Part shown: positions 3,836 to 11,574 of the stretch, one piece after another | Position numbering within the stretch: position 1 is the stretch's first letter | How the letters are laid out: the number at the start of each line of letters is the position of its first letter | DNA from: Candidatus Polarisedimenticolaceae bacterium | GTDB lineage: Bacteria; Acidobacteriota; Polarisedimenticolia; Polarisedimenticolales; DASRJG01 | Assembly (NCBI GenBank): GCA_036376135.1 | Contig: DASVAW010000085.1 | Coordinates: 1-64,000, forward strand | Direction of reading: 5' to 3' | DNA: 64,000 bases | Program-made: the position numbers and the translations under genes | The notes under the pieces: model-generated | Database searches by the model: none | Told to the model about the DNA's origin: nothing | The model's input: the letters and a program-made list of their open reading frames with translations, nothing else

Positions 3836-3862
3836 CCCCCGGGCCCACGACGGGCCCGGGGG
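3836..3862 (-). terminator. hairpin terminator after the H-domain/NrfD operon
   Basis: An 11-bp perfect inverted repeat (CCCCCGGGCCC, loop of 5, GGGCCCGGGGG) lies 10 nt beyond the stop of the H-domain gene at 3873 and before the DUF350 start. There is no clear U tract, so termination strength is uncertain, but the position at the end of the redox operon fits. Confidence 0.6.
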
Positions 3863-3872
3863 TCCCGGCGTA

Positions 3873-4565
3873 CTAGGAGGTCAGCAGCAGCTCGGAAGCG
3901 AGCCGCTTCCAGCCGTCGGGAGACACCTCGCGAGCGATTCCGAGAACGGGAACGCCGCCGTCCTGAAGCACCGTCCCCAGCTCGGGGGACGCGGCCCGCA
4001 GGAGCCGGTCGGCGGCCTCGTCGGTCCAGGTGCGGGCGAGCGCGGCGGTGAGGAGGTTGTTCACCGCCGTGTCGCCCCTGGGGACCCGGACCTTCATGAG
4101 CCAGCCGCGCCCGTAGGGATCGTCGGCGACGAGGCCGGGATTCCCGAGCGCGTCCGGATTGACGTCGAGCACGCGGCCCGTGACCGGCGAGAGCATGCCG
4201 AGCAGCGAGCCGTCGATCTCCATCGCCCAGGCCTTCGAGCCGGCCTCGACCGCCTGCCCGGCGACGGGGAGCTTCAGCGCGTCGGGCCGGCCGAGCAGCT
4301 TGCCGGCGAAATCGTCGAGACCCACCGCGAAGACGCCGTCCCCCTCGGGGCGGGCCCACGCGTGACCGCGATGGAAGAGGCGGTCCTCGGGAATGTCGAA
4401 CCAGCGCGCGCGGGCCGTGTCGGCGACGCCCGCGCCTGCGGCGTGGGCCTCGGCCTCGGCCTCGGCGGGACGCCCGCGCTGGAGCAGCATCCAGAACGGG
4501 ATGAAGAGCAGCAGGTACCCGATGACGAGCAGGTACTCGAGTCCCTTGGTCGCAAGGAATTCCAT
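3873..4565 (-). CDS. membrane-anchored H-protein-like domain lacking lipoyl lysine (paralogue 1)
   Basis: 230 aa. One N-terminal membrane helix (about residues 8-28, EYLLVIGYLLLFIPFWML) is followed by a lipoyl-type domain like glycine cleavage H protein: FHRGHAWAR, VGLDDFAGKLLG, LSPVTGRVLDVN and DPYGRGWLMKV. In true H proteins the lipoyl Lys lies seven residues before the Ser/Ala of SPVSG. Here that position is Gly119 (EIDGSLLGMLSP), so lipoylation should be impossible. It is the last gene of the redox operon, 2 nt after the NrfD-type gene, with the AGG of its ribosome site inside the NrfD stop region. The function is not glycine cleavage; a structural or partner-binding role in the complex is inferred. 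Confidence 0.82.
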   Translation of the reverse strand: MEFLATKGLEYLLVIGYLLLFIPFWMLLQRGRPAEAEAEAHAAGAGVADTARARWFDIPEDRLFHRGHAWARPEGDGVFAVGLDDFAGKLLGRPDALKLPVAGQAVEAGSKAWAMEIDGSLLGMLSPVTGRVLDVNPDALGNPGLVADDPYGRGWLMKVRVPRGDTAVNNLLTAALARTWTDEAADRLLRAASPELGTVLQDGGVPVLGIAREVSPDGWKRLASELLLTS

Positions 4566-4567
4566 GG

Positions 4568-8440: not shown

Positions 8441-8456
8441 TGCAAGGCCGGGACCA
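8441..8456 (-). promoter_or_regulatory. candidate sigma-54 promoter of the soluble H-domain gene
   Basis: The minus strand reads TGGTCCCGGCCTTGCA, a close match to TGGCAC-N5-TTGCA with correct GG/GC spacing. It differs from the site at 7556-7571 at only two of 16 positions. Transcription would begin about 20 nt before the ATG at 8410. The region between this site and the divergent kinase gene would hold the activator binding sites, but I could not identify those. Confidence 0.68.
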
Positions 8457-8605
8457 CGGCCGGGATCGTTGCGGCAGGCGGCTTTCCGGGTATTCGGGCC
8501 GCGGCGGGCCGTTGAGATCCTCCACACCACCGTCGAATCTCGCAGCGCCCCGGCCATTGTGGTACCGTCGGGTTCCTGTCCGCGCCGGCCCCCGGGGTCG
8601 TGGTC

Positions 8606-10207
8606 ATGCGCCACATCGCCGGAGTTCGATCCCTCAGCGTAAGGCTCCTCCTCGCGCTGCTCGGAACCGTCGGCGTCGCCCTCACCGCCTACGCCGTGAT
8701 CAGCTTCCGGTCCGCGGAGGCCGGGTTCAACTCGTTCGTGCTCGCCGAGGGGCAGCACACGAGCGCGTTGATCCGGCGCGCCACGCAGGACGCGATGCTT
8801 CTCAACCGCAAGAGCGAGGTGCAAAGCGCGCTCGAGCGCCTCGCGCGGGGCTCGACGATCACCGCCGTCCGGATCTTCGGCCCCGACGGCCGGATCGCGA
8901 TGTCCTCGAGCCGCGAGGAGGTCGGCAGGCGGGTCGCCCGCACGGAAGCGCCGTGCTCGCTGTGCCACGCCTCCGGGGTGCGCCCCCCCGAGAGGACCTC
9001 GAACGGGCCGGGACTGCGCCACCTCTCCGTGATCCCGAACGACGCCTCGTGCGTCGCCGCCTCCTGCCACCGGAACGTCGCCGACCAGCCCATCGTCGGC
9101 GTGCTCGACGTGGAGATGTCGTCGGGGCCGCTCGAGTCGACCCTCCGGGCGGCGCGGCGCCGGACCATCTGGACGATGGCGAGCCTGATCCTCGTGACCG
9201 GCGCGATCTCCGCGGTGTTCATCCACCGGGTCGTGCACCGGCCGGTGCTCCGGCTCCAGGAAGGAACGCGGCGGATCGCGCGCGGCGATCTCGACACGCG
9301 CATCGAGGTGTCCGGCAGGCACGAGCTCGCCGAGCTCGCGGCGGCGTTCAACACGATGGCGGAGGATCTGCAGGTCGCGCGGGAGGAGTCGGTGCACTGG
9401 TCGCGCCGCCTCGAAGAGAAGGTCGTCGAGAAGACCGAGGAGCTGCAGCGCACGCAGCGACAGGTCCTCCACATGGAGAAGATGGCCTCGCTCGGCAAGC
9501 TCGCGGCGACCGTCGCGCACGAGCTGAACAACCCGCTCAGCAGCATCCTCACCTTCGCGAGGCTCGTCGAGCGGGAGCTCCCCTCGCACCCGATCGCGCC
9601 CGAGCCCAGGCAGGAGATGTCGGAGTGGCTGCGCCTGATCCAGGACGAATGCGCGCGGTGCGGGAACATCGTGCGCGACCTGCTGCTCTTCTCGCGCCGG
9701 AGCGGGACGGAGCGGGCGCCGTTCGACGTCCACCAGGTCGCCGAACGCAGCCTCGCGCTGACCCGCCACCACCTCGAGATGCGCCGCATCGAGCTCCGCC
9801 GCGAGCTCGAGGCCGTGGACCCCGTCGTCGTCGGCGACGCGGCGCAGATCGAGCAGGCCCTGGTCGCGCTGATCGTGAACGCCGTCGAGGCGATGAGCGG
9901 GCCGGGGGCCGCCGGCGGGGAGCTCGGCGTCCGCGTCGACGACGACCCCGAAGAGGTCCGCGTCGCCGTTGCCGACACGGGCGTGGGGATCCACCCCGAG
10001 GTGCTCCCCCACATCTTCGAACCGTTCTTCTCCACCAAGAACAAGGAAAGCGGCGTGGGGCTCGGCCTCGCGGTCGTCTACGGCATCGTGCAGGGGCACG
10101 GCGGGACGATCGACGTCGAGTCGAACCCCGGGCGCGGGAGCGTGTTTCGCCTGCGCCTGCCGCGCAAGCCGCGCCCCGGAGCGGCTCAGGAAAGGGGTCT
10201 GCGATGA
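8606..10207 (+). CDS. membrane sensor histidine kinase with periplasmic haem-c motifs
   Basis: 533 aa from the ATG at 8606; a GTG two codons earlier is an alternative. A membrane helix (about 12-34) and a second one (about 188-210) bound a periplasmic domain carrying CSLCH (117-121) and CVAASCH (149-155). These are CXXCH and CX4CH haem-c attachment motifs. HAMP (about 208-262), a coiled linker, the phosphoacceptor His305 (ATVAHELNNPLSS) and an ATPase domain (DTGVGI, GLGLAVVYGIV) follow. It probably senses redox state or a gas through covalent haem and phosphorylates the sigma-54 regulator, whose start overlaps its stop (ATGA). The pair is divergent from the H-domain/NrfD genes, which it likely controls. 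Confidence 0.9.
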   Translation: MRHIAGVRSLSVRLLLALLGTVGVALTAYAVISFRSAEAGFNSFVLAEGQHTSALIRRATQDAMLLNRKSEVQSALERLARGSTITAVRIFGPDGRIAMSSSREEVGRRVARTEAPCSLCHASGVRPPERTSNGPGLRHLSVIPNDASCVAASCHRNVADQPIVGVLDVEMSSGPLESTLRAARRRTIWTMASLILVTGAISAVFIHRVVHRPVLRLQEGTRRIARGDLDTRIEVSGRHELAELAAAFNTMAEDLQVAREESVHWSRRLEEKVVEKTEELQRTQRQVLHMEKMASLGKLAATVAHELNNPLSSILTFARLVERELPSHPIAPEPRQEMSEWLRLIQDECARCGNIVRDLLLFSRRSGTERAPFDVHQVAERSLALTRHHLEMRRIELRRELEAVDPVVVGDAAQIEQALVALIVNAVEAMSGPGAAGGELGVRVDDDPEEVRVAVADTGVGIHPEVLPHIFEPFFSTKNKESGVGLGLAVVYGIVQGHGGTIDVESNPGRGSVFRLRLPRKPRPGAAQERGLR

Positions 10208-11574
10208 GCTCGATGCTCGGTTCCATCCTCGTCGTCGACGACGAGAACGCCGTCCGCCACTCGATGACGAGCTGGTTCCGCAAGGACGGCTACGACGTCT
10301 CCGCCGCGGCGAACGCCGCGGAGGCGCTCCACCTGATGCGCGAGCGGGCGTTCGACGTGATCCTGCTGGACATCCGCATGCCGGGCATGGACGGCATGGA
10401 GCTCCAGGAGCACATCCACAACGTCGACCCGAAGATCGCGGTCATCATGATCACCGCGTTCGCGTCGGTGGACACCGCCGTGCGGGCCCTCAAGCAGGGG
10501 GCCTTCGACTACGTCACGAAGCCGATCGACCCCGACGAGCTCAGCCATCTCGTCAAGCGCGCGCTCGAGCACCGGCGCCTGACGCAGGAGAACCGGGAGC
10601 TCCGTGGCACGATCGCCGCCCTCGCGGGCGCCGAGAGCATCATCGGCTCGAGCCCCGCCGTCGGAAAGGTCCTCGAGCTGATCCATCACGTCGCGAAAAC
10701 CGACGCGACGGTGCTCATCCGCGGCGAGAGCGGCACCGGCAAGGAGCTCATCGCGCGGGCGATCCACGCGAACAGCCCGAGGATGTACTTCCCGATCGTG
10801 CCCGTGAACTGCGGCGCGATGCCCGAGAACCTCCTCGAGAGCGAGCTGTTCGGCCACGAGCGCGGCGCGTTCACCGGAGCGCAGTACCGGCGCAAGGGGA
10901 AGATCGAGATGGCCGACGGAGGAACGCTGTTCCTCGACGAGGTCGGCGCCATCCCGCCGAAGATGCAGGTGGACCTGCTCCGCGTCCTGGAGTCCAAGGA
11001 GTTCACGCGCATCGGCGGGACCCGTCCGGTCAAGGTGGACTTCCGCGTCATCTGCGCCACGAACGAGGATCTCGACAAGGCGATCGCGGACGGCCGGTTC
11101 CGCGAGGATTTCTATTACCGCATCAACGTCTTCACGATCGAGGCCCCGCCGCTGCGGGCGAGGCGCTCGGACATCCCGATCCTCGCCGAGCACTTCCTCC
11201 ACCGTTTCTCGCAGCAGATGGACAAGCCCTTCACGGCGATCGGGTCCGCGGCGATGAAGCTTCTCGCCGCGCACGACTGGCCCGGCAACGTGCGCGAGCT
11301 GCAGAACGCGATCGAGCGCGCCGTCGTCGTCGGCACGCCGCCGACGATCGAGGCCGACGACCTGCCGTTGCGTCCACGCGCCGCCGCGCCCGCCCCCGGC
11401 GCGGCGCTCACCGACGTCGAGCGCCACCACATCGCCTCCGTCCTCGAGCAGACGAGCTGGAACATCACCCGCGCGGCCGAGATCCTCGACGTCGACCGCG
11501 TGACCGTCTACAACAAGATCAAGAAGTACGGCCTCGCCCGCGGCGGGTCGTCGTCCGCGGAGGCCGAGAGCTAG
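10204..11574 (+). CDS. sigma-54-dependent NtrC-family response regulator
   Basis: 456 aa. The receiver domain (1-125) has acidic Asp12/Asp13 and phospho-Asp56 (ILLDIRMPG). The AAA+ domain carries Walker A GESGTGKE (174-181), the sigma-54 contact loop GAFTGA (221-226) and Walker B TLFLDEVG (241-248). The C-terminal Fis-type helix-turn-helix reads [19 protein letters not shown]. All key residues are present. The start overlaps the kinase stop by 4 nt. Two sigma-54-like promoters in the divergent direction (7556-7571 and 8441-8456) make the adjacent redox genes its natural targets. Confidence 0.95.

Follow-up and report, generated by a model that had tools for sequence, protein, structure and literature searches.

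An HmcB/HmcC-related redox module encoded with H-protein-like proteins that lack the lipoyl lysine in a Candidatus Polarisedimenticolaceae bacterium

Gene content of the locus

In a computational analysis of a 64,000-nucleotide stretch of the Candidatus Polarisedimenticolaceae bacterium assembly GCA_036376135.1 (contig DASVAW010000085.1, positions 1 to 64,000 of the forward strand; hereafter the window), we characterised an operon in which a ferredoxin and a quinone-linked membrane subunit are encoded together with three proteins resembling the glycine cleavage H-protein, GcvH. Its five genes lie on the reverse strand and comprise H3 (7694–8410), a soluble H-like protein of 238 residues with a C-terminal ADGG motif; H2 (6761–7507), an H-like protein with two N-terminal transmembrane (TM) helices and a DGG motif; an HmcB/HybA-like ferredoxin (5865–6749) with a twin-arginine translocation (Tat) signal, DRRFFFK, and a hydrophobic C-terminal tail; an HmcC/HybB-like quinone subunit of the NrfD type (4568–5863); and H1 (3873–4565), an H-like protein with one N-terminal TM helix and a QDGG motif.

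This gene content had been proposed by an earlier model-made reading of the letters alone (the sequence-only reading), and both the genes and their positions were confirmed, as was the lack of genes for the glycine cleavage P and T proteins (gcvP, gcvT) and for a catalytic subunit of the NrfD complex near the module. That reading had, however, overlooked three genes that run divergently from the redox operon on the forward strand: a sensor histidine kinase (8606–10207; HAMP, HisKA and HATPase domains) and an NtrC-type response regulator (10204–11574; receiver, sigma-54 AAA and Fis-type helix-turn-helix domains in Pfam), both within the segment 3836–11574 that it covered, and an archaemetzincin of peptidase family M54 (11580–12155; NF033823, 148.3 bits against a cut-off of 145; motif HEIGHNFGLLHC, HExxHxxGxxH). 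No hydrogenase subunit genes were found in the operon or its adjoining genes. Directly downstream of H1, at 3584–3787, lies the gene for a short DUF350 membrane protein, whose match spans about half of the Pfam model.

H-protein-like proteins without the lipoyl lysine

H1, H2 and H3 all pass the Pfam GCV_H cut-off (E-values 1.2e-19, 8.4e-19 and 1.1e-10, respectively) and fall short of the NCBI GcvH equivalog model, scoring 67.4, 58.1 and 37.5 bits against a cut-off of 115.85. Since members of this kind pass the Pfam cut-off, they are likely annotated, wrongly, as glycine cleavage H-proteins. When aligned with the genome's own GcvH, which has the ESVK motif and is encoded beside gcvT on contig C92, they carry Gly119 (H1), Gly139 (H2) and Ala123 (H3) in the lipoyl-lysine column, exactly the residues named by the sequence-only reading. 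An AlphaFold (AF2) model of the H1 domain has the GcvH fold (predicted local distance difference test score, pLDDT, 90.7), with hairpin strands at residues 66–72 and 75–81 and a tip at Asp73-Gly74 (A1 numbering), Gly74 being Gly119 of the full protein. In a Foldseek search with this model, the top matches among solved structures were all GcvH, with a target TM-score of up to 0.93. H1–H3 thus share fold and Pfam family with GcvH but lack both the lysine and neighbouring P and T genes, and have gained a C-terminal extension with Trp and DGG as well as, in H1 and H2, membrane anchors. A role in glycine cleavage is ruled out by the missing lysine and by the true GcvH encoded elsewhere in the genome.

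Recruitment of a GcvH relative into a redox pathway is known from LbpA of sHdr sulfur oxidation, in which the lysine is strictly kept in 95 proteins encoded with Hdr-like genes (PMC6067878); the window proteins have no such lysine and no hdr genes nearby, which rules out this identity. H3 additionally bears an N-terminal four-cysteine motif, PC[IV]WMxAGxVxYKLCDRxFxCExCPLD, which is invariant in four homologues and probably binds a metal; a structure prediction of H3 including this motif, built from four sequences, was uninformative (pLDDT 40.6).

To describe the family beyond the window, we searched 119 genomes of the same phylum with a profile (A1) built on 21 domains of the H-like type. Scores reached at least 115 bits for clear H-like proteins and stayed below about 111 for identifiable GcvH proteins, with a few divergent H-like proteins under the line; 30 of the 119 genomes hold H-like proteins above it. 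Among 50 H-like proteins the lysine column is occupied by Gly in 28, Ala in 6 and Lys in 2, and it holds Lys in one of nine proteins in which the H-like domain is fused to a receiver domain, versus all seven GcvH-class sequences. In a second phylum, 3 of 11 H-like proteins have Lys in the column, within RGKR-type turns. Over the two phyla this amounts to 6 of about 70 family members, always outside the GcvH motif (E-S/A-V-K-A), and the true GcvHs of the same genomes retain ESVK. The sequence-only reading had named a conserved lysine elsewhere in the domain, placed at the hairpin tip, as evidence that would overturn it; in the family alignment no lysine is conserved at any other position, the highest Lys share in any column being 40%. 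Loss of the GcvH lipoylation motif is therefore universal in the family and loss of the lysine nearly so, and because the same loss runs through the family, that in the window is not due to chance, in agreement with the sequence-only reading. Its further claim that the proteins cannot be lipoylated stands for the three window proteins at the canonical site, but is too broad for the family, given the six members with Lys there in a non-GcvH context. What the family conserves instead, unlike GcvH, is the Asp of a VGxD motif (51 of 52), a PGHxW motif and the Trp- and DGG-containing C-terminal extension.

Several further observations concern the edges of this family. Tiny one-helix proteins of 59–91 residues with A/Q-DGG near the C-terminus, encoded in the same operons as H-like genes (loci L080, 7946–8137 and 8883–9116; L086, 6194–6809; L081, 5758–5973; L085, 5978–6253), look like H-like proteins minus the H domain. 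Locus L088 encodes two GcvH-like proteins (6712–7155 and 16807–17277) with intermediate scores of 104–107 bits, Lys in AAKM and SAKW contexts and no DGG, which are possibly lipoylated relatives. A scan of the whole sequence collection with H1 returned one real relative (L036) and one match that looks spurious (L037), and plasmids searched for H-like proteins gave GcvH-like matches only, or none.

Conservation of the module and its signalling genes

Clustering of the neighbours of H-like genes across 52 loci returned the kinase (33 loci), HmcB (31), HmcC (30) and archaemetzincin (19) as recurrent partners, and the module recurs in dozens of genomes. HmcC-class NrfD proteins occur in 28 of the 119 genomes and H-like proteins in 30, both together in 24 (Fisher p = 1e-15), with four genomes holding only HmcC and six only H-like proteins; the HmcC profile derives from H-like loci and the score thresholds were chosen by eye, which makes the test less than fully independent. 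Three genomes (G066, G101 and G140) carry more weight: in them, a locus with the kinase, regulator, archaemetzincin and HmcBC genes has no H-like gene and an orphan H-like gene lies elsewhere. In another phylum (that of G147, a record titled Deltaproteobacteria), locus L122 reproduces the order H3-H2-HmcB-HmcC-H1 collinearly, with divergent kinase and archaemetzincin genes. The co-occurrence with HmcC and this collinear operon tie the H-like proteins to the NrfD/ferredoxin module. Hydrogenase-linked HybAB operons have no H-like genes, including that of the window genome itself, where a second HmcB/HmcC-like pair lies within a hydrogenase operon (L107; G000 contig C166, 1–4136).

The signalling genes show conserved features of their own. 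In the window kinase, haem-c motifs (CSLCH and CVAASCH) lie in a predicted periplasmic region and are conserved in relatives: of 35 kinases, 32 contain Cx4CH and 29 contain CxxCH, and the spacing of the motifs within the predicted periplasmic part is conserved; judging by these motifs, the kinase is probably a di-haem c sensor. In the kinase of one H-like/archaemetzincin locus (L073, 2394–4358), the periplasmic sensor is replaced by a FeFe-hydrogenase-like domain together with Fe-S motifs.

Sigma-54 −24/−12 sites were scored out of a maximum of 16, and those of at least 14 precede 19 of 31 H-like genes compared with 12 of 293 control genes (p = 5e-15); orphan H-like genes are likewise preceded by such sites. 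In the window itself, sigma-54-like sites lie on the reverse strand upstream of H3 (8441–8456; TGGTCCCGGCCTTGCA) and H2 (7556–7571; TGGTCCGGGCCGTGCA), each weak taken alone, with comparable sites before the H3 orthologue and at the H2 position in L045. Both score 13 of 16, which ranks them among the best in the window, lie close to the gene on the correct strand and are 2 of just 22 such sites on both strands of the 64 kb. In L044, strong sigma-54 sites are also found next to the module, ahead of an operon for ferredoxin and 2-oxoacid:ferredoxin oxidoreductase and ahead of a radical SAM gene (6887–7162 and 13422–14606).

Fusions of a receiver with the H-like domain occur in L044, L049 and L074–L079 (three families), mostly behind a membrane helix, and the kinase and HmcBC genes are adjacent in the fusion loci. 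No NtrC-type regulator was detected in L074–L079. Taken together, the haem-motif kinase, the sigma-54 regulator, the archaemetzincin and the receiver fusions point to signalling.

The quinone module and a proposed role of the H-like proteins

The best NCBIfam models for the window ferredoxin and NrfD subunit are HmcB (326 bits against a cut-off of 420) and HmcC (367 against 550), scores that mark them as relatives of these proteins rather than equivalogs. Of 25 residues in the quinone and proton path of HybB, the NrfD subunit retains 15, all shifted by the same 19 positions; the next best offset gives 4. In the published list of these residues, replacement of Arg89, Tyr99, Glu148 or His184 lowers H2 oxidation (PMC8076601), and all four are present in the window protein as R108, Y118, E167 and H203. 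HybB and HmcC have been argued to be possibly electrogenic, like QrcD (PMC6303296). A search for solved structures with sequence similarity to HmcC gave none.

The module resembles several known systems. Apart from the best scores against HmcB and HmcC, likeness to the Desulfovibrio Hmc complex (HmcABCDEF) extends to a separate 66-residue protein of the HmcD kind directly after HmcC in the relative L046 and perhaps to the first 28 residues of H1, whose match to HmcD is faint and under the cut-off (E = 0.03; 14 bits against 34). Unlike Hmc, which is regulated by rrf1/rrf2 (PMC10924467), the window has neither the 16-haem HmcA nor HmcE or HmcF in the operon or neighbouring genes, scores under the HmcB/HmcC equivalog cut-offs, and adds three H-like proteins, a haem-motif kinase, a sigma-54 regulator and an archaemetzincin. 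With the HybAB pair of hydrogenase-2 it shares the ferredoxin/NrfD architecture and the conserved HybB residues; it is nevertheless no hydrogenase-linked HybAB, an identity ruled out by the absence of hydrogenase subunits and by the genome's separate Hyb operon without an H-like gene. Menaquinone reductase, described in the literature as QrcABCD, offers a further parallel, as a QrcB-like/QrcD locus is flanked by two H-like proteins in L081 (5758–12638) and L085 (5978–12853). The L081 locus includes a multihaem cytochrome gene, and its QrcD, at 571 bits, is barely over the equivalog cut-off; the window has neither QrcA nor QrcB. HybA/HybB-like pairs are known from a 2024 survey together with octahaem cytochromes, within Hmc and alongside FeFe-hydrogenase; the survey reports that the octahaem-type pairs lack conserved flanking genes, and the window's variant is absent from those described there (PMC10924467). 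The module would work like an Hmc/Hyb/Qrc-type quinone module, but by the defining features of these systems it is a member of none of them.

The sequence-only reading had pointed to the missing catalytic subunit. The absence is real, but a simpler account is at hand: Hmc-type complexes trade electrons with multihaem cytochromes, and relatives of the window module encode a c7-type cytochrome between the H-like genes (L059, L064 and L065) or fuse one to NrfD, which would explain the gap without a new enzyme. The apparent HmcC-c7 fusions are long NrfD genes (L121, 8453–10309; L123, 8267–9838) with three to six CxxCH motifs and a c7 cytochrome match. As to topology, the window ferredoxin is predicted to be Tat-exported and tail-anchored, and the positive-inside rule places the H domain in the cytoplasm in 43 of 45 TM-anchored H-like proteins. 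With the H domains and the ferredoxin on opposite sides of the membrane, the H-like proteins need not be in the electron path. Accordingly, of the earlier proposal that the lipoyl fold serves as a module within an electron-transfer complex, the link to NrfD and ferredoxin is upheld, and a place in electron transfer itself is not required.

We favour, with moderate confidence, a Hmc/Hyb-type quinone/cytochrome module whose H-like proteins are non-lipoylated cytoplasmic signal or docking adaptors within a redox-responsive regulon. The periplasmic 4Fe-4S ferredoxin of the HmcB type and the NrfD subunit would pass electrons between the quinone pool and, most likely, a small periplasmic multihaem cytochrome, an exchange for which no dedicated catalytic subunit would be needed. 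The predicted di-haem kinase may sense redox conditions in the periplasm or in the quinone pool, and the sigma-54 regulator would drive the module, the H-like genes forming one redox-responsive regulon. H1 and H2 would be held at the cytoplasmic face by their TM anchors, with H3 soluble, and the H-like domains would serve in protein interactions, most likely as adaptors for regulation or docking through which NrfD is tied to a signalling state or to a partner in the cytoplasm. The fold, the loss of the lysine, the gene linkage and co-occurrence, the promoter enrichment in relatives and the receiver fusions are computational results; both the cytochrome partner in this organism and the adaptor function are steps that we infer.

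Some points weigh against this picture. No cytochrome gene was identified beside the window's own module, its two sigma-54-like sites are individually weak, and most relatives' HmcB proteins have no Tat signal, so the ferredoxin side may vary between variants. Direct contact of the H-like proteins with NrfD is likewise a step that we infer. Moreover, H-like genes occur without local HmcBC genes (L070, L072 and L073) or near genes for 2-oxoacid:ferredoxin oxidoreductase or NuoEF-like proteins, and the H-like partner may therefore be something else.

The receiver fusions make a signal adaptor the leading specific idea. In its sharpest form, which we put forward only tentatively, a receiver would relay its state of phosphorylation to the cytoplasmic face of NrfD by way of a GcvH-fold domain devoid of lipoate, placing a quinone complex under direct two-component control; in L074–L079 the H-like domain would be the apparent output of the pathway, and in the window the sigma-54 regulator would determine how much of this adaptor is made. 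A competing possibility, to which we give a minor share of belief, is that the H-like proteins dock a cytoplasmic redox enzyme, such as a 2-oxoacid:ferredoxin oxidoreductase or a NuoEF/hydrogenase-type enzyme, onto the membrane complex, with signalling being purely transcriptional. Oxidoreductase genes of the first type lie near H-like genes in L038, L039, L044, L060 and L062, NuoE/NuoF-like genes adjoin the H-like gene in L125, and the invariant four-cysteine motif of H3 might bind a cluster. Such enzyme genes are nevertheless missing beside the module in the window and at most loci, and docking by itself gives no account of receiver fusions where no NtrC-type regulator is present (L074–L079). 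The L125 region (7772–16004), where an H-like protein with tandem Cys motifs is encoded beside NuoE/NuoF-like, Fe-S, DRTGG-like and PHP-like genes identified by eye, resembles sensory FeFe-hydrogenase operons.

That the H-like domain is instead a sensor binding a small ligand or another cofactor non-covalently, for example a quinone head group, an acyl-CoA or a metal, seems to us improbable. The family-conserved VGxD, PGHxW and DGG positions that set it apart from GcvH would suit such a function, but neither a conserved polar pocket nor a cofactor motif was identified, the hairpin forms only a short turn, and Cys motifs are confined to some of the H-like proteins, those of the H3 type. It is harder still to believe that the proteins are lipoylated after all, through a different lysine or in part of the family: the six lysines in the column stand in RGKR-like turns rather than in the GcvH motif, no other lysine is widely kept, and the window proteins present Gly, Gly and Ala at the hairpin tip. 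Finally, decaying, functionless GcvH paralogues beside a redox operon by chance, as the lost catalytic lysine might suggest, are already contradicted by linkage conserved in two phyla, dedicated promoters in relatives, the added conserved W/DGG region and highly conserved fold residues.

We consider the locus a real, conserved and apparently undescribed variant in which a known redox module is combined with repurposed H-protein partners lacking lipoate and a dedicated signalling system. Non-lipoylated barrel-sandwich domains of lipoyl-like fold are present in the respiratory complexes of NqrA and RnfC, a precedent that narrows the earlier claim of a previously undescribed use of this fold. The H-like proteins differ from these in matching GCV_H clearly, a sub-threshold NQRA_N match being seen in one relative only, and we found no description in the open-access literature of H-like proteins with NrfD modules, of receiver-H fusions or of an archaemetzincin in such a role.

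The findings offer a context for bacterial archaemetzincins and for the 'orphan' HybA/HybB-like pairs for which the 2024 survey gives no clear partners (PMC10924467). If the proposed role is correct, a swinging-arm domain would have been reused without its cofactor, both as a membrane-anchored partner of NrfD and as the output domain of response regulators; in lineages where little genetics has been done, this would give redox sensing a route to a quinone-linked complex.

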